Origin: an uncultured Chthoniobacterales bacterium
GTDB taxonomy: Bacteria > Verrucomicrobiota > Verrucomicrobiia > Chthoniobacterales > UBA10450
Assembly (NCBI GenBank): GCA_902805675.1
Contig: CADCTA010000068.1
Coordinates: forward strand, 25,994-89,993
Direction of reading: 5' to 3'
Length of the DNA: 64,000 nt
Every line of letters starts with the position of its first letter. Within the stretch, counting starts at the first letter, position 1. A program made the translations under genes and the position numbers. Positions 17,179 to 37,883 of the stretch are shown one piece after another. The notes under the pieces are model-generated. The model searched no databases. It had not been told where the DNA came from and saw only the letters and a program-made list of their open reading frames with translations.

Positions 17179-17745
17179 ATGACAACGTCTGCCCCCCTCA
17201 GACTGAACGTCGAAGATAAGCTGGAGGCGCTTCGCAAACTCGACACCAGCGGCCGGTGGCGCTCGCTGGACGATCAGCGCTACTGCACACGCTGCGATCA
17301 CGTCATCAGCGGCCGGCAGATTGAGGTCGCCGGCGGCACGCGTGTGCATGGTGCATTGCGACTCGAGTGTCCCACGGAAAGTTGCGCCGCGACGCCAGCA
17401 GACTGGAGAGCGGCGGGCCGTCGGAACACAGCGGCGCCGCGAGCGGCCGCAGAGCGGAGCGAGAGGGATGGCGCGGACTCGCATGATGCCGGTTACGTCT
17501 ACATCCGCGCGAGAGGCGAAGGGATCGCGATCACGCACAATGGCCGCGCCGCGGTCGTGCGGCGGAAACGCTCCGGGCAGGTCGTGCGCCTGGAAGACAT
17601 CGCGCAATTCAGTGAGCCGCGCGCGCGTCGTCCCCGGTTTTTGGGATGGTTGGCGCGGAATGTCGTTTCTCTCGCGACTGATGGTGGCCGCCTCTTGAGC
17701 CTGCTTCGGCAGGCGAACCGGGGCGGCTCACATCCCGTCCATTAG
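17179..17745 (+). CDS. Zinc-ribbon-like protein of unknown function (paralogue of 25730-26308)
   Basis: RYCTRCDHVISGRQIEVAGGTRVHGALRLECPTESCAATPADW and AITHNGRAAVVRRKRSG. Confidence 0.75.
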   Translation: MTTSAPLRLNVEDKLEALRKLDTSGRWRSLDDQRYCTRCDHVISGRQIEVAGGTRVHGALRLECPTESCAATPADWRAAGRRNTAAPRAAAERSERDGADSHDAGYVYIRARGEGIAITHNGRAAVVRRKRSGQVVRLEDIAQFSEPRARRPRFLGWLARNVVSLATDGGRLLSLLRQANRGGSHPVH

Positions 17746-18438: not shown

Positions 18439-19140
18439 CTACAGCTGCTGGTTGACCCAGGTCACCGCGAAGCGCGCGACTTCGCGCGCGTTCTTGAAGT
18501 CGAGCTTCTCTTTGATGTGCGCGCGGTGCGCTTCCACCGTCTTCGCGCTGATGTGCAGCTCCTTCGCGATCTCCACGAGCTCTCGGCCTTTGCCGAGTAG
18601 CTGCAGGATCTCCAGCTCGCGATCCGTCAGGCGATCGACAGGCGAAGCCGCATCGCCGCCGCCGTGCAGGTGGGCGAAGACCATCCGCTTCGACATGTTC
18701 TCGCTGATGAAAATCTCGCCGCGCAGCACAGTGCGCACAGCGGAGATGAAATGCTCGAGCGCCTCGCGTTTCATCACGTAACCGCGCGCGCCGGCGCGGA
18801 GCGCGCGCTCCGCAAACATCGTCTCGTCGTGCATCGAGAGGACGAGCACCGGTAGCTCGGGTCTCTCCGCCTTGATCGCTTTGGTCAGCTCGATGCCGTT
18901 GGTGCTGCCGTCGAGTCCGATGTCGACGACCGCGAGGTCGAACTTCTGCTGCCGCAATTCGCCGAGCGCCTGCTGGCTGTTGCTCGCTTCCGCCCGCACC
19001 TGGAGATCGGGCTCATCGGTCAGCAACTGCACCACGCCTTTGCGGAAGAGGGGGTGATCGTCGACCACGAGCACGCCGTATTTGTGTAGCGCGCCGCTGT
19101 CGTTGGTGTCCGCGGATAGTTTCTTCCCGTTGCTCTTCAT
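18439..19140 (-). CDS. NarL/FixJ-family response regulator
   Basis: ATG at 19140: MKSNGKKLSADTNDSGALHKYGVLVVDDHPLFRKGVVQLL...LTDRELEILQLLGKGRELVEIAKELHISAKTVEAHRAHIKEKL. Confidence 0.92.
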   Translation of the reverse strand: MKSNGKKLSADTNDSGALHKYGVLVVDDHPLFRKGVVQLLTDEPDLQVRAEASNSQQALGELRQQKFDLAVVDIGLDGSTNGIELTKAIKAERPELPVLVLSMHDETMFAERALRAGARGYVMKREALEHFISAVRTVLRGEIFISENMSKRMVFAHLHGGGDAASPVDRLTDRELEILQLLGKGRELVEIAKELHISAKTVEAHRAHIKEKLDFKNAREVARFAVTWVNQQL

Positions 19141-20122: not shown

Positions 20123-23100
20123 CTACTGCTTCACCGGCACGCGGCAGGTCACCCTTGTCCCTTTGCCCTGCTTCGATTCCAACTTCAGCATGCCGCCGGA
20201 GACGTTCGCGCGGTATTGCATCATCTGAATGCCCAGCCCGCCGCGTTTGCCGCGGCGGCGCGGGGTGCCGTTGTCAGTGATGACGAGATGGATCTCGTCC
20301 TTCTGCCGCTCGATGCAGATCACGACCTCGGTTGGCTTCGCGTGCTTGAGCGCGTTCGTGACCGCTTCCTGCGCGATGCGGTACAGGTTCACCGCGATGG
20401 CCTCGCTCGGCACGCGCAAGCTGCGCGGGCACTCGCAAGTGCACGTCACCGTCTGGCTGGTGCGCGACGCGAGCTCGCGCAATGCCGAGACCAGGCCGCC
20501 CGAGCCGAGCTCCAGCGGATGCAACCCACGCGCGAGGTCGCGCGCCAGGCCGGCATTGCGATTCACCATCTCGGCGCTCTCGATCAAAGCTTCGCCGGCT
20601 TCGGGGTCTTCGCGCGCAAGACTCTTGGCGCGCGATTTCAGGAGGAACGCCGTCGCCGTCAGTTCCTGGCAAAGGCTGTCGTGCAGATCCTGGCTGATGC
20701 GCGCGCGCTCGTTTTCGCTCACCTCGAGGACCTGGCGCTCCAGCTTCTGCCGCTGCGCCATCTCCTGCTCGAGCGATTCGTTCATCGCCTGCAATTCCTT
20801 CGTGCGATGATGCACGCGCTGCTCGAGCTCCGCGTGCGCCTGCCGCAGTTTCTCGTCCGCCATCTTCTGCTCGGTTGCCTCCCGGGCCACCTTCGCGAAT
20901 CCGCGCAGCGTGCCGTCGTCGTGATTCAGGCGCCGCATGAAACCATCGAGCCAGAGCCGCGTGCCATCCTTGCGCACGTGCCACCGCCGGTCCGGCGCTG
21001 CGCCCTCACGAAGCGCGCCCTCGATCTCCTTCATGTCTGCTCGTGTGGCGAGGTCTTCCTCGACGAAAATCAATGAACCCTTTTGGCCGATCGCTTCCTC
21101 AGGTGTCCAGCCAAACACCCGCTCGGCGCCGCTGCTCCAGAAGGTAATGTTGTTCTCCGGATCGAGCAGGAACATCGCGTAATCCGGCGCCCCTTCGACC
21201 AGCAACCGGAACTTCTCTTCCGTCGCGGTGAGTGCCGCCTGCGCCTCCTTCAAGTCCTGAATGTCGGTCGCGGAACCGAACCAGCTCATCACCTTGCCGT
21301 TGTTTTCCCGCAGCGGAACATTGCGGGCGAGGAACCAGCGGTAATTGCCATCGGCTGCGCGCAGCCGGTACTCGGCGTCGAAGACCGCGCCACTTGCGAA
21401 CGCTTGCTGCCATCGCTCGATCGCCGCCGGCGCATCGTCGGGGTGCACCACGGTCTGCCAGCCCGGGCCGCGCAGTTCGTCGTGGGTCATGCCCGTGTAA
21501 TCGAAGAAGCGCCTGTTGAAGTAGACCGCGTCGCCGTTCGCATCGTTTGTCCAGATCACTTGCGGCACGTTGTCGGCGATCGTGCGGAAACGCTCCTCGC
21601 TGGCGGCGAGCGCCTGCTGGGTCTCCTTGCGATCGGTCACATCGACGATGAACTCGACCCCGAACTCCTCGCTGAGCGCCTTTGCGCTGAACAGTCCCCA
21701 CCAGCGGCTCCCATCCTTCCGGATGTATTGCTTCTCGTACGTGGTCGTCTTTCCCCTGCGCTGCAATTCCGCGAGCGCCTCCTTCGAAGGCTCGATGAAT
21801 TCCGGTGCCGTCATCGTGTCCCACCGCACGATGCCGCGCGCGAGGTCCTCGCGCGTGTAGCCGCTCATGCGGAGGAACGCATCGTTCGCGTCGTTGATCG
21901 CGCCGCCGGTGGTGAAGAAAATCACGCCTACGGTCTCGATCTCCAGCGTGCGGCGCATCCGCGCCTCGCTTTCGCGCAGCTCGTCTTCCGCTTTCTTCCG
22001 CCGCGTGATCTCGATAAACGTCGCGACCACGCCCGCGATCCGGTCTTCGGTCGTGCGATAGGGCGCGATCCGCGTCAGATGCCATGTCCCGTTCGCCAGC
22101 TGCACTTCGCGTTCGCGCGTGTGCAGGTCGTGCAACACCTTCTCGACGTCGGCCATGAAGCCTTCGTACTTCAGCGTGCTCGTGATGTCCGAGATGGGAC
22201 GGCCAAGGTCGGCCGGGATGAGGTTGAAGACGCGCTGCGCGGCGGGCGTGAAGCGATGGATGCGCAGTTGCCGGTCGAGGAAAATGGTCCCGATGTCGGA
22301 CGAAGCCATCAGGTTGTTGAGGTCGGCGTTCGTCTTGCTCAACTCCTCCACGCTGCTCTTCAGCTCGTGGTTCACGGTCGTCAGCTCTTCGTTGACGGAC
22401 TGCAGCTCCTCCTTGCTCGTCTCGAGCTCCTCCGTGGCGGAACGCATCTCCTCGTTGATCGCCTGGAGCTCTTCGTTGCTCGCTTTCAGCTCCTCGTTCA
22501 TCCCCTCGTACTGCTCGACCGTGGCGTTGAGCTGCTCCTTGAGGAACTGGATCTCCTCGTCTGCATCCTGACTGATGACGGTCGACGGAGCGCCCTGACC
22601 GACCACCGACGCGTCCGCCGGCTTCTCGAACAGGACGAGGAAGAATCCTTGCGCGAGGTCATCTGCCACCGCCGGCCGCACGACTACCGTGATGACCTCC
22701 TCACCCCCGTCGAGATGCACCCGCGTCGGCGAGCCTGTGGCGGCGGTCTTCGTCTGCGCGGCCTTGAACAATGCCGTGCGTAGCTCGGTCTGGAGCTCCG
22801 GGTGCACCACTTTGGTGATGTTCGCCGTCGGCTCGCCCGCCACGAAATGCAGGTAACGCCCGGCACTCTGCGACAAATGGACGATGTCGTGGCCTTCATT
22901 CACCACCACCGAGGGCGGCCCGTATTGCTCGAGCAGCCGCAGGTGCAGCTCGCCGAAGAGAACTTCGCGCCGTGCATGGCCCGCTTGAAACGCGGTGACA
23001 CTTTTCGTCGCGGCGTCTTCCGCAATGGCGGGCGTCAATGCCGGCAGCGGCCGCGAACGCCAGCCGGCAACCGGCCGGCCAGTCGTGAGCGGCGCCCTGA

Positions 23101-24706
23101 TGGGAAGGATCGGCACCTTCCACGTTGGCCGCGGCGTCGAGCGGCGCACGAAGATGCGGTGCTTCGCGTCCATCGGCGTGAAGAGCGATTCCGCCTGGCC
23201 GTGGTTCTCCGCGCCGCCGAGGAAGAGCAGTCCGCCCGATTTGAGCGCGAAATGGAAAACGTCGAACACCTGCTTCTGCGCCGAGGTGTTCAGGTAGATC
23301 AGCAGGTTGCGGCACGAGATCATGTCGCAGCGCGAGAAGGGCGCATCCTTCAGCAGGCTGTGCGACGCAAAGAGGACCTTCTCGCGGATCTCCTTCCGCA
23401 CCCGGTAGCGCCCGTGGTCGCGCATGAAGAACTCGCGCAGCCGCTCCGGCGTGACGTCTGCCTCGATCATCGCTGGGTAAAGCCCGTCGCGTGCGGAGGC
23501 GATGGCCTCCTCGTCGATGTCGGTCGCAAAAACTTGGATGCTTGGCGGATCATCCAGCCGCTGTGCGTGCTCGCAGAGCAGCATCGCGATGGAATACGCC
23601 TCTTCGCCTGTCGCGCAGCCCGCCACCCAGATGCGGACTTCGTCGTCCTTCTTCTTGCCTGCGAAGAGCTGCGGGATGTGCGACTCGATCGCGGCAAACG
23701 AGTCGCGATCGCGGAAGAAATGCGTCACCCCGATGAGCAGATCCTGGAGCAGAGCCCGCGCTTCGACCGGGTGGGTGCGGAGGAACTCGACGTACTGCGG
23801 GATCGACTCGAGCGAATTCACCTGCAGTCGCCGCGCGATGCGGCGCAGCACCGTCGCGCGCTTGTAATGCGAGAAATCGTGGCCCGTCTGCGCCCGCACG
23901 TCGGCCAGCACTTTGCCGATCGCCTCTTCGTCTTCGGTCTGGCGCGTCTCGTCGGAAACCGTCTCGCCGCCCGGCGCGTCCACCACCTTCGCGTCCGGCT
24001 CCGCGGCATCGAGAATTTCCGGCGGCAGCCGCATCCGCTGCTCGTTCCCGACGAACTCGGCCAGCTTCGCTGCCATGTCGCCGACCGGCAGCACCCAGTC
24101 CACCATCCCGGTGCTGATCGCCGTCGCCGGCATGCTGTCGAACTCGGCCTCGTTCGGGTCCTGCACGATCGAGAGCCCGCCCTGGGCGCGGATGTGTTTC
24201 AGCCCGATCACGCCATCGGAGTCCGTGCCCGAAAAGATCATGCAGACGGCGCGCTGCCCGTAAGCCTGCGCCAGCGTGCGGAAGAACAGATCGATCGCCA
24301 CGCGCCGGCCCAAACCCTGTTGCGGCGGCACCAGGTCGAGCATGCTGTCGTTAAACGTCAGCTGCTGCCCCGGCGGGATCACGTAGACGTGATTCGGCCG
24401 CACCTTCACCGGCTCGGTGACCTGCATGACCGGCATCGACGTCTTCTGCTGGATGATGTTCGCGAGATGGCTCTCGTGCTCGGGCGAAAGATGCATCACG
24501 ACTACGAACGCGAGCCCGGTCTCGGGGTTCATGTCCGCGAAGAACTGCTGCAGCGGCGCCACGCCGCCGGCCGACGCGCCCAGCCCTACGACCGCCGCCG
24601 GCTCATTCGGATCACGCCGCTTTTGCGCACCGCGGCGAGCGTTCTCGGAAGTCTCGTCAGTCGCGGCGGGATCGAGCGCCTGGCTCGGGGAGTTTTCTTC
24701 AGGCAT
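20123..24706 (-). CDS. CheB-CheR-PAS (multiple)-histidine kinase (NarX/DesK-like HisKA_3 + HATPase) fusion
   Basis: VVGLGASAGGVAPLQQFF (CheB), RIWVAGCATGEEAYSIAMLL (CheR), long coiled coil, PAS boxes, RISQDLHDSLCQELTATAFLL and IAQEAVTNALKHA. Confidence 0.92.
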   Translation of the reverse strand: MPEENSPSQALDPAATDETSENARRGAQKRRDPNEPAAVVGLGASAGGVAPLQQFFADMNPETGLAFVVVMHLSPEHESHLANIIQQKTSMPVMQVTEPVKVRPNHVYVIPPGQQLTFNDSMLDLVPPQQGLGRRVAIDLFFRTLAQAYGQRAVCMIFSGTDSDGVIGLKHIRAQGGLSIVQDPNEAEFDSMPATAISTGMVDWVLPVGDMAAKLAEFVGNEQRMRLPPEILDAAEPDAKVVDAPGGETVSDETRQTEDEEAIGKVLADVRAQTGHDFSHYKRATVLRRIARRLQVNSLESIPQYVEFLRTHPVEARALLQDLLIGVTHFFRDRDSFAAIESHIPQLFAGKKKDDEVRIWVAGCATGEEAYSIAMLLCEHAQRLDDPPSIQVFATDIDEEAIASARDGLYPAMIEADVTPERLREFFMRDHGRYRVRKEIREKVLFASHSLLKDAPFSRCDMISCRNLLIYLNTSAQKQVFDVFHFALKSGGLLFLGGAENHGQAESLFTPMDAKHRIFVRRSTPRPTWKVPILPIRAPLTTGRPVAGWRSRPLPALTPAIAEDAATKSVTAFQAGHARREVLFGELHLRLLEQYGPPSVVVNEGHDIVHLSQSAGRYLHFVAGEPTANITKVVHPELQTELRTALFKAAQTKTAATGSPTRVHLDGGEEVITVVVRPAVADDLAQGFFLVLFEKPADASVVGQGAPSTVISQDADEEIQFLKEQLNATVEQYEGMNEELKASNEELQAINEEMRSATEELETSKEELQSVNEELTTVNHELKSSVEELSKTNADLNNLMASSDIGTIFLDRQLRIHRFTPAAQRVFNLIPADLGRPISDITSTLKYEGFMADVEKVLHDLHTREREVQLANGTWHLTRIAPYRTTEDRIAGVVATFIEITRRKKAEDELRESEARMRRTLEIETVGVIFFTTGGAINDANDAFLRMSGYTREDLARGIVRWDTMTAPEFIEPSKEALAELQRRGKTTTYEKQYIRKDGSRWWGLFSAKALSEEFGVEFIVDVTDRKETQQALAASEERFRTIADNVPQVIWTNDANGDAVYFNRRFFDYTGMTHDELRGPGWQTVVHPDDAPAAIERWQQAFASGAVFDAEYRLRAADGNYRWFLARNVPLRENNGKVMSWFGSATDIQDLKEAQAALTATEEKFRLLVEGAPDYAMFLLDPENNITFWSSGAERVFGWTPEEAIGQKGSLIFVEEDLATRADMKEIEGALREGAAPDRRWHVRKDGTRLWLDGFMRRLNHDDGTLRGFAKVAREATEQKMADEKLRQAHAELEQRVHHRTKELQAMNESLEQEMAQRQKLERQVLEVSENERARISQDLHDSLCQELTATAFLLKSRAKSLAREDPEAGEALIESAEMVNRNAGLARDLARGLHPLELGSGGLVSALRELASRTSQTVTCTCECPRSLRVPSEAIAVNLYRIAQEAVTNALKHAKPTEVVICIERQKDEIHLVITDNGTPRRRGKRGGLGIQMMQYRANVSGGMLKLESKQGKGTRVTCRVPVKQ

Positions 24707-25729: not shown

Positions 25730-26308
25730 CTAAGTGGGTGGATTGGCGCCGTGGGTCGGCGCAAAGTTGTGGAGATGCGCGATGACGTTCTGAATCGCCG
25801 CGCGGAATCCCGTCGACCGGCCGTCGCGTGGCTTCGAGGCCGTTGATTGTGCCGGGAGATGCGGGCGCCTTCTCACCGTCCAGACTCGGCCTTGGTGTGT
25901 CACGGTGACGTCGCCGGGAGGAGCATCTGGCAGCGGTTCTGGCGGGACGACGGCCTCCCACCAATCCGGTCCCGCATTGCAGTGCAAACCGGGGCAGCGC
26001 AGTCGGAGCGACCCGGAGGAACGCGTTCCGCCGACGATCGGGATCTCCCAGCCATCGAAAACATCTCCGCAGGCAAGACAGCGCCGCTTGTCGGACAACT
26101 TTGTCCAAGGGCGAGCAGTATCGAGCCGCCGCAAGACTCGCAGCCGATGCTCCGAGGAGAGATCCAAGTCGAGTAGGGGCTCGATCACACTGTCATCTTG
26201 CGCGGACGACGGAGAATCGACAATCGGTCGCCGCTCCGATTCGGCTCTAGGAATAATTAGTACGCCGACGGCACGGATCGTCAGTTGGCATCCACTGCGT
26301 TTGGTCAA
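25730..26308 (-). CDS. Zinc-ribbon-like protein of unknown function (paralogue of 17179-17745)
   Basis: RRCLACGDVFDGWEIPIVGGTRSSGSLRLRCPGLHCNAGPDWW...VTVTHQGRVWTVRRRP; start codon uncertain. Confidence 0.7.
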   Translation of the reverse strand: MTKRSGCQLTIRAVGVLIIPRAESERRPIVDSPSSAQDDSVIEPLLDLDLSSEHRLRVLRRLDTARPWTKLSDKRRCLACGDVFDGWEIPIVGGTRSSGSLRLRCPGLHCNAGPDWWEAVVPPEPLPDAPPGDVTVTHQGRVWTVRRRPHLPAQSTASKPRDGRSTGFRAAIQNVIAHLHNFAPTHGANPPT

Positions 26309-28599: not shown

Positions 28600-28836
28600 A
28601 TGGAGACGCCGCTGATCGAGCTGGATGGCGAGCGCTTCTGCCTGACGGTGCCGATAAAGGAGGCAACGGCATTCGCATTGGGCTGGTCCGACCTCGGCTG
28701 TACGGCGCCGCCAGACGCGCTTCGTCAGGCGGTTGGCATTCTCGTCATCGATGCGCTGCAGTTCTCGGAGGAGTGGCGCCTCGCGGGCATGGTCAGCACG
28801 TGTCTCGCCCTCAAATGGCCTGACGGCATTTCGTAG
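28600..28836 (+). CDS. Small uncharacterised protein, paralogue A
   Basis: METPLIELDGERFCLTVPIKEATAFALGWSDLGCTAPPDALRQAVGILVIDALQFSEEWRLAGMVSTCLALKWPDGIS; aligns with 34672-34911 and 35005-35229. Confidence 0.75.
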   Translation: METPLIELDGERFCLTVPIKEATAFALGWSDLGCTAPPDALRQAVGILVIDALQFSEEWRLAGMVSTCLALKWPDGIS

Positions 28837-28868
28837 CGTCGTCCGGGGAGCAGCCGCGTTCGAAATAG

Positions 28869-29627
28869 ATGGCACGTCGACCAAATCTCGGGCCGATCCA
28901 GAGCCTCCGCGCGTTCGTGAGAGTTGCGCTCCCGGTGATCTTCGCGCTCGCCCTCTTTGCGCCGGCGGACGCGGACGCGAAGAGCCGCCGCCGCAAAGAC
29001 AAGCGATCGTACTTCGTGCGCACGATCCTGAAATCGGCAGCGGTCGCGCCGTTCTCCACCGTCATCATCGATCCCGGCCCTGGTGGGGTGGATCCGGGCG
29101 GGATTCGGCAGAACTTCATCCCCGAGAAGGGGGTGGCACTGGATGTAGCGAAGCGTCTGCAGAAGAGCCTGAAACGATCCGGGCTCAACACTTCGATGAC
29201 TCGCTCCGATGACCGGTTCATCCCGCTCGATGCGCGCGTAGCCTTCGCGAACTCATACCGCGACGCGATCTTCCTCAGCATCCACTTCAATTCGGCCCCG
29301 CGCCGGGCAGTCCGAGGCGTCGAGACCTACTACGCGGCGCCGACCGAAGCGGTGCTGGCGGCGCGCATTCAGCGGAACATCGCGGCGACGACCACGGGCG
29401 GGAATCGCGGCGTGAAACGCGCGGGGTTTCGTGTCCTGCGCAACACGAAGATGCGAGCCGTTCTCGCCGAGTGCGGCTTTCTCACCAATCCGCAGGATGT
29501 CGCCCTGGCGGTGAACCCGCGCTATCGCCAGATGCTCGCGGACCAGATCGCGCGAGCCGTCGTGGAAGAGCGCAATGCGGTTCGTGCGGTAACGCAGGCG
29601 AGCGCACCACGTGTGACGCGGTTCTAG
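28869..29627 (+). CDS. N-acetylmuramoyl-L-alanine amidase (Amidase_3)
   Basis: VIIDPGPGGVDPGGIRQNFIPEKGVALDVAKRL...LSIHFNSA...LRNTKMRAVLAECGFLTNPQD. Confidence 0.92.
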   Translation: MARRPNLGPIQSLRAFVRVALPVIFALALFAPADADAKSRRRKDKRSYFVRTILKSAAVAPFSTVIIDPGPGGVDPGGIRQNFIPEKGVALDVAKRLQKSLKRSGLNTSMTRSDDRFIPLDARVAFANSYRDAIFLSIHFNSAPRRAVRGVETYYAAPTEAVLAARIQRNIAATTTGGNRGVKRAGFRVLRNTKMRAVLAECGFLTNPQDVALAVNPRYRQMLADQIARAVVEERNAVRAVTQASAPRVTRF

Positions 29628-29676
29628 AGTCGAAATCCTACGGCGTGGCTGCCCGTCGCGCGCGATTCGGAGGTGA

Positions 29677-30639
29677 ATGCAACGACGTGACATTGCGGTG
29701 GTGGGCGCTTCGACCGGGGGAGTGGAGGCGCTGCGTATTTTCGTCGAAAATCTGCCCGCAGATTATCCCGGGACAATCTTCGTGACCATGCACGTGGGGC
29801 AGGTCAGCCTCCTGCCGGAGATCCTCGCGCGCTCTGGGAAGGTGCCGACGAGCGCCGCCGAAGACGGGGTGCGCTACGAGCCGAATCACATCTACGTCGC
29901 GCCGCCAAATCGCCACCTCGTGATCAACGATGGCCACATGAAACTCTCCGCCGGGGCGAAGGAGAACGGCCACCGGCCGGCAGTCGACGCGCTTTTCCGC
30001 AGCGCAGCGCGTGAGCTGCGCTCGCGAGTGGCCGGCGTGGTCCTGAGCGGAGCGCTGGACGACGGGGCGGCAGGGTTGTTCGCAGTGAAGTCGCGCAACG
30101 GCGTTGCGATCGTCCAGGACCCGAAGGAAGCCGCCGCACCCGACATGCCGCTGAATGCGATGAAGAATGTGACGGTTGATTATATTCTGCCGGTCGCGCA
30201 GATCCCAAGCTTGCTGGCGGAACTCGCCCACGCCGAAGCAGGCGAGACGGAGGGGGGCATCGAGGCCGGCGAGATGAAACTGGAAAAGGAGGAGCTCGTC
30301 TCCGATCCGCCGTCGTCCCTTAAGCAGATTTCGATGGCCTGTCCGGAATGCGACGGTCCGCTCTACGAAACCGCGGAGGGACAACTGGCGCATTTCCAAT
30401 GCAATGTCGGGCACGCGTTCTCGCCCGTCAGCCTGAGTGCCGCGCATGGCGAAGCGCTCGAGCGTGCGCTCTGGGTGGCAGTTCGCACGCTCAACGAGCG
30501 GATCACACTGCACCGCGAGATGCTGAGGAAAAATGATCGGAACGCCGGGCAGGAGGCGCTGTTCCGCCGGCTGGAAGAGTCGGTCAAGATCGCGGAGCAA
30601 GACGTCCAGCTCCTACGGCAGATCATCGAGCGGATTTAG
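29677..30639 (+). CDS. CheB methylesterase-domain protein with C-terminal Cys-rich extension
   Basis: DIAVVGASTGGVEALRIFVENLP...FVTMHVGQ...GVVLSGALDDGAAGL; CPECDGPLYETAEGQLAHFQCNVGHAFS. Confidence 0.88.
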   Translation: MQRRDIAVVGASTGGVEALRIFVENLPADYPGTIFVTMHVGQVSLLPEILARSGKVPTSAAEDGVRYEPNHIYVAPPNRHLVINDGHMKLSAGAKENGHRPAVDALFRSAARELRSRVAGVVLSGALDDGAAGLFAVKSRNGVAIVQDPKEAAAPDMPLNAMKNVTVDYILPVAQIPSLLAELAHAEAGETEGGIEAGEMKLEKEELVSDPPSSLKQISMACPECDGPLYETAEGQLAHFQCNVGHAFSPVSLSAAHGEALERALWVAVRTLNERITLHREMLRKNDRNAGQEALFRRLEESVKIAEQDVQLLRQIIERI

Positions 30640-30735
30640 CGCAAGCGGACGAGTGTCTCGTGCCCGCGACGCGGCAGCTGATTTTAGACGACTAGGATCC
30701 CGGCGGATTGCGTTCCCTCAAACGGGGGAACAAGC

Positions 30736-31591
30736 ATGGGTTCAGGGAACGGGAAGCACACGAAAGCGCGCGGGCGGCCATCGCGAAACGGGACGCCTGG
30801 GCTGATGATGATCGGCGGCCGCGAAGATCGGACGGCGAGAAAGCGATCCTGCAGGAAGTGGCGCGGCGCGTCGGGCAGGGGAAGCTGGTGGTCAGCACCG
30901 TCGCGTCGAGCGAGCGGGACGGGCTCGTCGAGGTTTACGAGAGAGCCTTCACTGATCTCGGGGTGAAGCGGATTCACAATCTCGAGATCGCCACGCGCGA
31001 GGAAGCGACGCAGGCGGACAAGATCAAAGAGGTGGAAGGCGCGCAGGGTTTCTTCTTCACCGGCGGCGACCAGCTCAAGATCACGAGCCAGATCGGCGAC
31101 ACGCCGATTCACGAGGAGTTGAGCAGCATCATCGCGCGCGGCGGCATTGTCGCCGGGACATCAGCGGGAGCGTCTGCCATGTGCGAGACGATGCTGGTGA
31201 GCGTGTCGGGCGCGAGTCGCATCGGGTCGATGATTCGCTCCGTATGTCGCCGGGTCTGGCGATGATTCCGGACGTGATCGTCGATCAGCATTTCGCGGAG
31301 CGCGGGCGGCTGGGCCGGCTACTCGGGGCTGTGGCGCACAATCCGAAAAGCCTCGGCATCGGGATCGACGAAGACACTGCGGTCCTAGTCGAGCCCAACC
31401 GGCAGCTGGAGGTCTTCGGCTCCGGAGCTGTCTACATCATCGATGGGCGCGAGGTCACAGCGTCGAACATCACCGACGCGAGGCCGGATCAGACGTTGTC
31501 GATGTTCGGAGTGACGCTGCACGTGCTCAGCGCCGGCGATCGCTTCGATCTCGGAACGCACACGCCGATGCGCGGCGGTATTCGGACCTAA
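30736..31591 (+). pseudogene. Cyanophycinase-like gene with two apparent frameshifts
   Basis: Segments lie in different frames: TPGLMMIGGREDR / DGEKAILQEVARRVGQGKLVVSTVAS...AGTSAGASAMCETMLVS / GRESHRVDDSLRMSPGLAMIPDVIVDQHFAERGRLGRLLGAVA... Confidence 0.8.
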
Positions 31592-31767
31592 CGATCCGCG
31601 CGTGGCCGTGGCGCGCCTTGCGCTGGGACAGCGGACGCTGGCAGCGTCACGCGAGCGTTTGCCGCGACTGTGGCGGCCGGCCGCCATGTTGCAGCGGTGC
31701 GTCGCTTACAAGTGGCCGGCGTTGCAGCCGGAGTGAGGCGGCGCACCTCCCGCCATCACCTGCGTTG

Positions 31768-33198
31768 TTAAGCGGGAGTGAGCTCGAGCGCGCCGAGCGG
31801 GTCGAAAGCCTCCGCCTCGGCTTCAGGTACGCGGTCGGCTTCGGGCGGCTGCTGCCATTCCCAATCACTCATCTGCGGCATCCATCCGCGAATCCAGTGC
31901 GCCGTCGGTTGTTGAAACTCGTAGGCCGGGAGCTCGCTCGCGCGACATCCACCGGCTGCGAGTGCAAAGCTTGTGGAGATCGCGGACGGCTGCCGATCCA
32001 GCTGTGCGTCTAACGAGTAAATGCCGACGGGATCGACGTGGCCTTCGCAGCGCCGCAGGAGCGAATCCCAGTCGCAGGAATCGACGAACGGATACCAGCA
32101 ATGCCCGTCCATGGCCACGCCGGCATCCGCCGCGATCTCGCATTGCTCAAGGGTGTACTTGAACCACGTCGCGCGGTCGGACGCGGTGCCGCGGATGTTC
32201 GTTTCGCCGAGCAGGCAGGGACGCTGATAGCGCGTCCAATATTCCACGATCAGCTCGGAGAGGGCGCACGGACGGTTGGTCGGCGCGAAGTCGACATCCA
32301 GCTTCGGGTGCGACCACTGATTGTGCGCGTAGTAATCGAGCCCGACGACATCCACGTGCCCGGGCTCCATGTTCAACAAGTCCGCGCCTCCTGCTGCGAT
32401 CATCTCGCGGAAGAACGGCCGGTCCGGGTCAAGGTCGATGCCGAGGAGAAGATCGAGGACCGCGAAGCGGCGATCGTTCAGGAGCGCCGCCGCTTCGGTG
32501 TTGCCGTCATGCCGCTCGCAGGTGTCGGTGTGAAAGTGGCGCGCGTTCGGCAGCAGTTCGCGGCAGATGCGGCTCGCCTCGCTCCAGGCGGGAAGCACGT
32601 TGTTCCACAGCTGGATCATTCCCGGCAGGTCGTCGTAATAGGGCGGCCACGCGCCGACCTGGCCGGAAAGCAAGAGCGTGGAGAAGGGCTCGTTGAATAA
32701 CGTGTAGCTCTCGATCCATGGATAACGGCGCGCGAACGCCTCCACATAACGGAGGTAGGCGCCGCTGAAACGCGGATCGGCAAAGTCGAGCCAACCCGGA
32801 TGGCTGGTGTGGTGAAGCAAGTCTGCGATCGGCTCCAGGCCGCGCTCCAGGAGGCACTCCATCGCTTCGTCTGTCTCACGCCAGTCGAGCTTGCCTTCAG
32901 TTTCTTCTACACGGTGCCACCGCACCGGGTAGCGCACGCGCCGCACGCCTGTCCCGGCCAGGAGGTCTAGATCGGCGCAACGCCGGTCGACGTGGCCGTT
33001 GGTTTCGCACACATCACGGTCGTGCAGCGGCGCGTAGGTCGACTCGAAGCCGGTGAGAATTTCAATCGGTGCGATGCGTCGTGCGGTTTGGTGCCGGCCT
33101 GTGACTGCCGGCGGAACGAGGACGCGCGGCCAGCCTGGCCGGGAAAGCGCTGCGGAGCAGGTGAACGAGTGGGGGAGGCTGTTCGGTTTGATCGACAT
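31768..33198 (-). CDS. Clan GH-A / GH1-like glycoside hydrolase
   Basis: GVRRVRYPVRWHRVEETEGKLDW, ESYTLFNEPFSTLLL, PCLLGETNIRG. Confidence 0.75.
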   Translation of the reverse strand: MSIKPNSLPHSFTCSAALSRPGWPRVLVPPAVTGRHQTARRIAPIEILTGFESTYAPLHDRDVCETNGHVDRRCADLDLLAGTGVRRVRYPVRWHRVEETEGKLDWRETDEAMECLLERGLEPIADLLHHTSHPGWLDFADPRFSGAYLRYVEAFARRYPWIESYTLFNEPFSTLLLSGQVGAWPPYYDDLPGMIQLWNNVLPAWSEASRICRELLPNARHFHTDTCERHDGNTEAAALLNDRRFAVLDLLLGIDLDPDRPFFREMIAAGGADLLNMEPGHVDVVGLDYYAHNQWSHPKLDVDFAPTNRPCALSELIVEYWTRYQRPCLLGETNIRGTASDRATWFKYTLEQCEIAADAGVAMDGHCWYPFVDSCDWDSLLRRCEGHVDPVGIYSLDAQLDRQPSAISTSFALAAGGCRASELPAYEFQQPTAHWIRGWMPQMSDWEWQQPPEADRVPEAEAEAFDPLGALELTPA

Positions 33199-33446
33199 AA
33201 GGCTGGGAGTTGTGCCACAGAGCCTCGACGCCGCGTTATTGGGTGGCTATTGGGTGACCGGCTTGATGTCATATCAGGGTTTTGCCTAACGACTCGTCGA
33301 ACTCCTCCCTAGCGTGTGCCCGGCAGCGGGCCCGTTTGGCACATGGCTCGCCACTCGTCGGGATCCGAAAACCGCAGACCGCGCGCGCGTCGCGCGGCGT
33401 TTGCGTCATTGCCGCACCACGAGCGTGCAGCGACAAAAGAATTGCT

Positions 33447-33643
33447 ATGAGCAACCAACCTAAAGACGAGCAGCAGCCGCTAGCGATCGAGAAGTCGAGC
33501 GCCGGGCAGGCCAACGCCGACCTCGCCTCTGATTCCGTGCCGGGTGATCGCAAGGCCAGCGGAGACGGAGCAGCTCCTCGAAGAGACGGTGGAAGAAAGC
33601 TTCCCAACCAGCGATCCAGTGTCGCCGAAGCAGATCACCTGAC
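33447..33643 (+). pseudogene. Small acidic protein, apparently frameshifted
   Basis: MSNQPKDEQQPLAIEKSSAGQANADLASDSVPGD in one frame, then AETEQLLEETVEESFPTSDPVSPKQIT* in the next; the tail resembles the common (EE)xxxxESFPASDPxS terminus. Confidence 0.5.
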
Positions 33644-33725
33644 GCGGCAATCGTGCTATCGCGCTCCCATTCCCGACGCTCTACCCGTCGCCTTTGCTGC
33701 GACGCCCCACGGCAGCTCGCGAGAG

Positions 33726-34073
33726 CTACGCCGCCGCGAGGACGGAGCGGAGCCGGCGAAAGTCGAGGGGCTTCGTCAGGTAATCGTCGAATCCGGCCTG
33801 CATCCCGCGTTCGCGGTCTTCGTCCGTAGCCAGCGCGGTGAGTGCGACTGCCCTCTTCAAGGGCTGGCGCTTTCGAGCCTCGCAGACCAGCTCCAGCCCA
33901 TCGCCATCGGGCAGGCCGATGTCGCTGAGCAGCACGTCGAAGCGCAGGTTTCCGAGCAAGATCAAAGCATCTCCTACGGTGCCAGCGGCCGAGACGTCGT
34001 GTCCGCAATGGTTCAGCAAACGCGAAAGCACCACCCGGGTATCGGTGTGATCTTCCACGAGCAGAATGTGCAC
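33726..34073 (-). CDS. Stand-alone response-regulator receiver (REC) protein
   Basis: MHILLVEDHTDTRVVLSRLLNHCGHDVSAAGTVGDALILLGNLRFDVLLSDIGLPDGDGLEL...LTKPLDFRRL; GTG start. Confidence 0.85.
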   Translation of the reverse strand: MHILLVEDHTDTRVVLSRLLNHCGHDVSAAGTVGDALILLGNLRFDVLLSDIGLPDGDGLELVCEARKRQPLKRAVALTALATDEDRERGMQAGFDDYLTKPLDFRRLRSVLAAA

Positions 34074-34671
34074 ACCGCTATATTCGGATAAAACGCGCGG
34101 CTGCGTGCCTCGGGCGGTAGGGTGGGGCTGATTTTTCGCTCCAGCTCGCGCAGCGAGTCCTGACGCACTTCACCGCTCCGAACCTCTATCGCATTCCTCG
34201 AGACGCCACACCACGTCACGTACGGAGCAGCACTAGCCGGTCGGCAATCCACGCAATGGCAGTCACTGCCACGCTACGGCGTAGCGTGCAGACGATAGCG
34301 GACGCCTCCGCACAGACAGCCGCCTTCGATGGCGCTCGCCATACACTCAAGGCGTTTCCGGTTGCATGAGGCTGCGGAAAAAGGCGGCAGGTTGCGGCCG
34401 ATCGTCCGGGCCGGTCAGGCCGGTGCAACGCTCGCGTGTGTTCACGCCTTCAGTTCTACTGATTGCCACGCGAACGCCAAGAGGCGACCCGCGCGTCAGC
34501 GTCAGCGTCGGCGTCCCACGAGCAGAGGCGTTTTGTTAAGCAACACAGACGCTCCAGGCGCGCAGAACTGCGGGCGCGCGATAGCCGAGGGAGCTGCTGG
34601 CGTGCGCTTTGAGCCGGCGCGCGCTCATTCTGGCGCGTCCGTGGTGGAGTCGCAGCGCGTTTCCGTCGTGA

Positions 34672-34911
34672 ATGGGAACGAGCCCGATCGAGTTCGGCAA
34701 TGAACGCCTGCGGCTGACCATCTCGCTGAGCGACGCCGTGTCGTTCGCGATGGGGTGGTCGAACCTCGAGTACCGCGACCCGGCAGACCACCTCCGCCAT
34801 GTGGTCGGCGTGCTGGCGATCGACGAATTGCAGCGGAGCGAGCAATGGCGGCTGGCGTCCATGTTACAAGCCTGCCTGGCGCACCGCTGGCCCGCCTACC
34901 AGGCGGATTAG
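34672..34911 (+). CDS. Small uncharacterised protein, paralogue B
   Basis: MGTSPIEFGNERLRLTISLSDAVSFAMGWSNLEYRDPADHLRHVVGVLAIDELQRSEQWRLASMLQACLAHRWPAYQAD. Confidence 0.8.
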   Translation: MGTSPIEFGNERLRLTISLSDAVSFAMGWSNLEYRDPADHLRHVVGVLAIDELQRSEQWRLASMLQACLAHRWPAYQAD

Positions 34912-35004
34912 CGTCTCCGATCGCACCGGCTGAGAGCGGCGGGCGCTCCACCGCCGGCTACGGTGCTATGACGGAGCCGCGACACCAGTCTGTGCGGTAC
35001 AAAC

Positions 35005-35229
35005 CTACCGGAGAAGATCCGGCCACTTCTCCTGGAGAAAGCTCCGGAGCAGTGCTGCCGCGCGCCATTCCTCCGAATACTCCAGGGTGTCGATGACAAG
35101 CAGCCCGACCAGCTGCCGCAATTCATCCGTGGGATGGATGTAATCCAGATCCGACTCGCCCATGACGAAAGGAATGGCGTCGCTGAGCGGAATGGTGAGT
35201 CGGTAGCGTTCTTCGTTCGCTTCGATCAT
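35005..35229 (-). CDS. Small uncharacterised protein, paralogue C; directly downstream of STAS gene
   Basis: MIEANEERYRLTIPLSDAIPFVMGESDLDYIHPTDELRQLVGLLVIDTLEYSEEWRAAALLRSFLQEKWPDLLR. Confidence 0.85.
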   Translation of the reverse strand: MIEANEERYRLTIPLSDAIPFVMGESDLDYIHPTDELRQLVGLLVIDTLEYSEEWRAAALLRSFLQEKWPDLLR

Positions 35230-35251
35230 GCGGGGTGTCTCCTGGCCGCGG

Positions 35252-35659
35252 CTATGCTGCGACTTGCGAACTGCCTCCGACCACGGACCCGAACAGCGGC
35301 TCGGCAGGCGGTGGCATGCAGCCACTGCGCAGCCGGGCTATCGCTTCGTCGAGGCTGCTGAAAATGGGCACCGCTTTCTCGAGTTGCACGATCTCGAACA
35401 CGTAGCGGACCGGTTGCGTAGGACCTGCAATGCAGAACTGGGCGCCAGACTCGGCGGTGGCGCGCAGGTACTCGATCAGGACGGCAATGCCAGTGGAATC
35501 AATGAAGTCGACGCCGCTGAGATCGGCGACCAGAGCAGGGCAGCGCGCCTTTGCTTTCGCCCCAAAGATCGACCGTAGAGCGGGCGCATAGTGGAGGTCG
35601 ATCTCGCCTTCCAAATGGAAGACGTCGATCTGATCGTGGCGTGATTCGCGGAGTTTCAT
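35252..35659 (-). CDS. STAS-domain protein (anti-sigma factor antagonist-like)
   Basis: IDVFHLEGEIDLHYAPALRSIFGAK...PALVADLSGVDFIDSTGIAVLIEYLRAT. Confidence 0.88.
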   Translation of the reverse strand: MKLRESRHDQIDVFHLEGEIDLHYAPALRSIFGAKAKARCPALVADLSGVDFIDSTGIAVLIEYLRATAESGAQFCIAGPTQPVRYVFEIVQLEKAVPIFSSLDEAIARLRSGCMPPPAEPLFGSVVGGSSQVAA

Positions 35660-37363: not shown

Positions 37364-37577
37364 GGATGCAAGCGGTGACGTGATGCGGCTGGCAGGAGGC
37401 CGCGTCACATTCCCGTTTGTATTACGTCGCGGATGGGCGAGAGTGGCCGCGTTGGATTAGTGTTCTGTTTCGGTTCGTCGCTTGGTAGGTCGTCAGTTGA
37501 GTTCGTCTCTTTGGTGATTCTGAAACCCGGTTCTCGGGAACGGCTCGCAGCTCGCAGTATCGCTCCACATTATCACC

Positions 37578-37883
37578 ATGAAATTATACGTAGGGAATCT
37601 CTCCTTCGACACGACTGAAAACGATCTCCAGGATCTTTTCGAACAACACGGCCAGGTGCGCGAAGTCGCCCTGATCAACGATCGTGAAACCGGCCGCTCA
37701 CGCGGATTCGGCTTCGTCACGATGGCTGATGCCGCAGCGGGAACCGCCGCGATGAACGCCTTCAACGGCAAGGAAATTCAGGGTCGCACCCTGACCGTCA
37801 ACGAAGCCCGCGCACGCGAAGAGCGTCCAGCAGGCGGCGGCGGCGGTGGTGGCCGCGGCGGCTACTCCGGCGGACGCCGGTAA
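37578..37883 (+). CDS. RRM-type RNA-binding protein with Gly-rich tail
   Basis: [49 protein letters not shown]...[15 protein letters not shown]. Confidence 0.93.

Follow-up and report, generated by a model that had tools for sequence, protein, structure and literature searches.

Two described systems come closest to the genes reported here. In the alphaproteobacterial general stress response the NepR proteins are small anti-sigma factors which may be present as paralogues in one genome, and their pathway can receive input from a single-domain response regulator (PMC4814048, PMC5964349). The second is the SpoIIAA/RsbV type of STAS protein. On a wider scale, the FESNov catalogue (PMC10849945) collects novel gene families from uncultivated taxa, each restricted to a lineage.

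The window, a stretch of 64,000 nucleotides from an uncultured Chthoniobacterales bacterium (Verrucomicrobiota), carries three members, A, B and C, of a small protein family referred to below as the orphan family. Like NepR, orphan proteins are small, their genes are found near ECF sigma and response-regulator genes and paralogues occur in one genome. They differ in having neither a Pfam or NCBIfam sequence match nor a fold match to NepR: no NepR model was listed when all members were compared with Pfam and NCBIfam at a limit of E=10, and the fold is not among the 12 PDB matches listed by Foldseek for a model of copy C. A further difference is that ECF sigma genes occur regardless of the presence of the orphan. 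No PhyR-type gene (REC plus sigma-like) was seen in the annotated stretches around the orphan loci; ECF sigma and REC genes are close to some of them. The likeness to SpoIIAA/RsbV systems is one of position, since copy C and the copy of the congener G003 follow an RsbV-like STAS gene. In contrast, the orphan proteins themselves match no STAS, RsbW or RsbU model, and the link concerns only two of 11 loci. The family resembles those of FESNov in kind: it is confined to largely uncultured genomes and its function is guessed from context, but its neighbourhood is a statistical tendency and not a fixed operon.

An unnamed family of small acidic proteins

The preliminary description of this DNA reported three paralogues of about 75 aa, alignable from end to end. 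These are indeed present: copy A (28600-28836, + strand; 78 aa), copy B (34672-34911, +; 79 aa) and copy C (35005-35229, -; 74 aa), each of which runs from ATG to stop. They share 49-51% pairwise identity with 30 invariant columns in an end-to-end alignment, and the sequence pattern proposed for them fits with trivial deviations only (I for L and V for L in copy A). They were the sole matches of a BLAST query at E<=10 in the 3.5-Mb, 125-contig assembly. Copies B and C are convergent and 93 bp apart.

Comparison of 13 family members demonstrates that the genes are truly protein-coding. Identities at the three codon positions are 0.60, 0.71 and 0.39, the third position being the freest, and frame 0 contains no stops, with amino-acid identity at 50%, in contrast to the other frames, all of which are interrupted by stops. 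Residues A18, F21, L28, D35, R38, G42, D47, L49, E53, W55 and R56 (copy C numbering) are invariant in all 13. The family is mostly acidic, with a pI of 4.2-4.8 in 11 of the 13 copies, and no enzyme-like motif was found in its proteins. It had been proposed that the three copies are too diverged for recent duplication; a tree, in which A, B and C do not form one clade, agrees, with weak branch support, as it is built from 13 short sequences and its deep forks are not well supported. The region includes another paralogous orphan pair: two related proteins of about 190 aa (17179-17745, +, and 25730-26308, -) with 32% identity over 124 aa, common CxxC and GGTR motifs and no Pfam match.

No credible match to the orphan family was obtained in Pfam, NCBIfam, PHROGs, PADLOC or PDB sequences, where matches were at chance level, so that identity with a known family was rejected. 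This bears out the initial impression that no named family could be recognised. A phage, plasmid or viral origin was likewise rejected, with no match among phages, plasmids and viral contigs (IMG/VR). The AlphaFold model of copy C, with seven sequences as input, is confident (mean pLDDT 89.8, pTM 0.78) and entirely helical, with three predicted helices at residues 15-22, 35-51 and 55-68. Foldseek returned nothing significant for this model in PDB or BFVD and no PDB match below E=4.9.

Profile searches identified carriers in 10 of the 83 genomes of the window's bacterial family (seven of the 30 of good quality), distributed over four of its 14 genera. No carrier was found outside it in samples of 214 genomes from the order, 385 from the class and 390 from the phylum; these samples overlap, and for class and phylum they are incomplete. 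The orphan family is real and unnamed, a group of small acidic proteins with a predicted three-helix fold, found only in one Chthoniobacterales family. The literature on stress signalling and on small proteins of this clade yielded nothing about it; it appears to be undescribed and one more lineage-restricted orphan family.

Decayed copies are also present. A fourth copy in the window is reduced to a C-terminal remnant (31671-31736, +; translation WRPAAMLQRCVAYKWPALQPE followed by a stop) without an intact upstream part, detected by a profile match (E=0.014) and by tblastn with copy B (E=1e-6, the search being small and run with composition correction disabled). G003 includes a second fragment, in which the Trp is changed and stops follow, while its main copy (L020, 9221-9450) is frameshifted close to its C-terminal end, with what remains of the conserved tail encoded in another frame; this frameshift could be an assembly error. 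The relaxed-E matches in the window and in G003-C50 are real remnants of the family. The best extra matches of the relaxed-E search of the order were inspected, and those in G091 (glycosyltransferase-like by eye) and G001 (ClpS-like by eye) were judged to be due to chance. Orphan-family copies thus come and go: copy number is variable and the family is fast-changing. Between copy A and the remnant, a peptidase S51 (cyanophycinase-like) gene is apparently split into overlapping frames (30708-31265 and 31244-31591, both +; Pfam match for the first part), by a frameshift or an assembly error.

Genomic neighbourhoods

We compared 11 loci, that of the window and ten from nine other genomes, in which genes were called and selected neighbours tested in Pfam. 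A response-regulator domain occurs within about 3 kb of the orphan gene in eight of them, where about one would be expected from the genome-wide density of 16.7 such domains per Mb. The binomial tail is 9e-7, or 3e-4 if the syntenic genus is treated as a single case, values which are approximate, given that random placement is assumed, that the 3-kb limit was set after viewing the loci and that independent lineages are few. The orphan family thus lies close to two-component, ECF-sigma and stress genes at a frequency above chance, and the regulatory neighbourhood first suspected from the window alone recurs in other genomes, chiefly as response-regulator domains.

In the window, copy A is followed on the same strand, after 32 bp, by an N-acetylmuramoyl-L-alanine amidase gene (28869-29627, +; PF01520) and then by a gene for a protein with a CheB-type methylesterase domain (29677-30639, +; PF01339). 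A single-domain response regulator (REC; 33726-34073, -; PF00072, E=4e-22) is encoded 598 bp from copy B, and in G035, G029 and G070 blastp revealed relatives of it close to the orphan gene. The window also encodes a CheB-CheR-PAS-histidine kinase (20123-24706, -; Pfam), whose relatives were found by blastp in comparable islands of G029, G035 and G003, and a response regulator (18439-19140, -) 89% identical to one in the G003 island, which there combines REC with a LuxR-type output (Pfam). The G003 locus includes genes for an ECF sigma factor, a REC protein, a LuxR-type regulator, a PAS histidine kinase, a STAS protein and the orphan; blastp detected relatives of its REC, LuxR-type regulator and PAS kinase in the window.

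Elsewhere, the loci of G035, G029, G070 and G071, all of one genus, include an ECF sigma gene with a REC or LuxR-type regulator gene, and some also DUF892, a CheB-CheR-PAS kinase or a pyrophosphatase. A cyclase-domain protein and REC are encoded at the G012-C102 locus, REC and DUF1345 at that of G020, and an RRM protein together with a translation-initiation-factor-1-like (infA-like) gene, recognised by eye, at those of G012-C15 and G006. In G008 the orphan gene is at a contig end, beside a pyrophosphatase-like gene (by eye). No obvious common promoter motif was seen by eye in the upstream regions. A sequence resembling a palindromic repeat, GAGGGACG...CGTCCCTC, was noted, also by eye, no more than about 220 bases upstream of the G006 copy (L015, start 5002, - strand).

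An RRM gene is also present in the window (37578-37883), preceded by a leader of about 130 nt (37450-37577, +) with no Rfam match. Of 208 genomes of the order, 95 contain DNA that is 75-90% identical to this leader, either over most of it or over part of it. Its relatives directly precede an RRM gene in all 15 loci checked. The folding of the leader is less stable than that of shuffled sequence (z=+2.5), so that it may lack structure and serve for protein binding or autoregulation.

An ECF sigma gene is near the orphan in five loci (G035, G029, G070, G071 and G003), but 82 of 83 genomes, carriers and non-carriers alike, have an ECF sigma gene, and an obligate partnership was therefore rejected. 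In G068, a congener of G035 without the orphan, the ECF and REC genes are retained in the same order, and a stretch of 62 nt corresponds to the 506 nt of G035 in which the orphan gene lies. The signalling island can thus exist without the orphan, which is an optional add-on to it.

Possible roles in stress signalling

Given that its genes are often surrounded by genes for the sensing of stress and signals, the orphan protein probably acts in stress signalling or stress protection and is probably dispensable. We tentatively favour an accessory role in stress signalling, as a protein-protein adaptor: made under stress, the protein would bind one signalling protein of the island (REC, kinase, sigma or STAS) through its conserved helical residues and would tune the output without being the core switch. 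Consistent with this are coding under selection, the enrichment in signalling islands, the STAS-orphan order in G003, the lack of an enzyme motif, the acidic pI and the all-helical model. On the other hand, no neighbour is constant and most copies are outside any operon with a signalling gene, so that no dedicated partner stands out; the copies of G006 and G012-C15 adjoin the RRM/infA-like group and that of G008 the pyrophosphatase-like gene; and no fold match in PDB or BFVD points to a binding mode.

The islands also include stress effectors (DUF892, DUF4142, small-HSP-like, pyrophosphatase), and location therefore cannot tell a regulator from an effector. Small general-stress proteins exist elsewhere, and it is nearly as likely as an adaptor role that the orphan is a stress-protective effector, a small, abundant, acidic protein controlled by the island regulators and not itself engaged in signalling. 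Its optional presence, its variable copy number and neighbouring SPW, DUF892, DUF4142, pyrophosphatase and DUF326 genes would fit such a role. However, the most specific conserved gene orders are those with STAS and REC genes and not with any one effector, and this places the adaptor slightly ahead.

The STAS gene of the window (35252-35659, -; PF01740 E=2e-18; ant_ant_sig TIGR00377 above cut-off) encodes an SpoIIAA/RsbV-like protein with a D-S-T-G motif. As the preliminary description stated, copy C lies downstream on the same strand after exactly 22 bp (35230-35251). The pair is kept in G003, where the STAS ortholog is 57% identical and the orphan gene follows after about 40 bp, but the association proposed from it is no general rule: no STAS gene was seen in the stretches read at the other nine loci. 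The link is real but narrow. The spacing in two species of the genus, the phosphorylatable Ser retained in the D-S-T motif of both STAS proteins and the RsbW-type ATPase domain encoded elsewhere in each carrier genome would agree with copy C modulating, or being sequestered by, the adjacent STAS protein in a partner switch. We consider this unlikely as a role for the family, with only two of 11 loci concerned, the G003 copy frameshifted and related STAS genes (44-48% identity) existing without the orphan. Every carrier genome has other STAS genes, on contigs without the orphan. There is no RsbW-like kinase at the locus; the contig of the window has a single HATPase_c_2 match, namely the histidine kinase 20123-24706, and the stand-alone RsbW-like ATPase of this genome is on another contig.

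Least probable is that the gene is a very small cassette, selfish or mobile, or one half of a toxin-antitoxin pair, which has spread within the clade, as patchy presence, several copies and remnants and the G035-G068 length difference might suggest: no flanking repeats beyond syntenic DNA are common to the 13 copies, so that a cassette with common flanks was rejected, there is no phage, plasmid, viral-contig or defence-database match and no constant toxin or antitoxin partner, and orthologous positions across genera are partly seen (on the pyrophosphatase side in G008 and G070, on the RRM side in G006 and G012).

In its broadest form the adaptor reading would make the family a new class of small helical regulators plugged into the REC/ECF/STAS stress network of soil Chthoniobacterales, with paralogues serving different input branches, a proposal which we regard as rather doubtful. 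The context of the orphan family indicates a process, though not yet a mechanism. Verrucomicrobia are numerous in soil and poorly represented in culture, and to our knowledge their stress signalling has barely been described. An orphan protein with a confidently predicted fold that tracks signalling islands provides a small, concrete target for the study of stress control in such bacteria.
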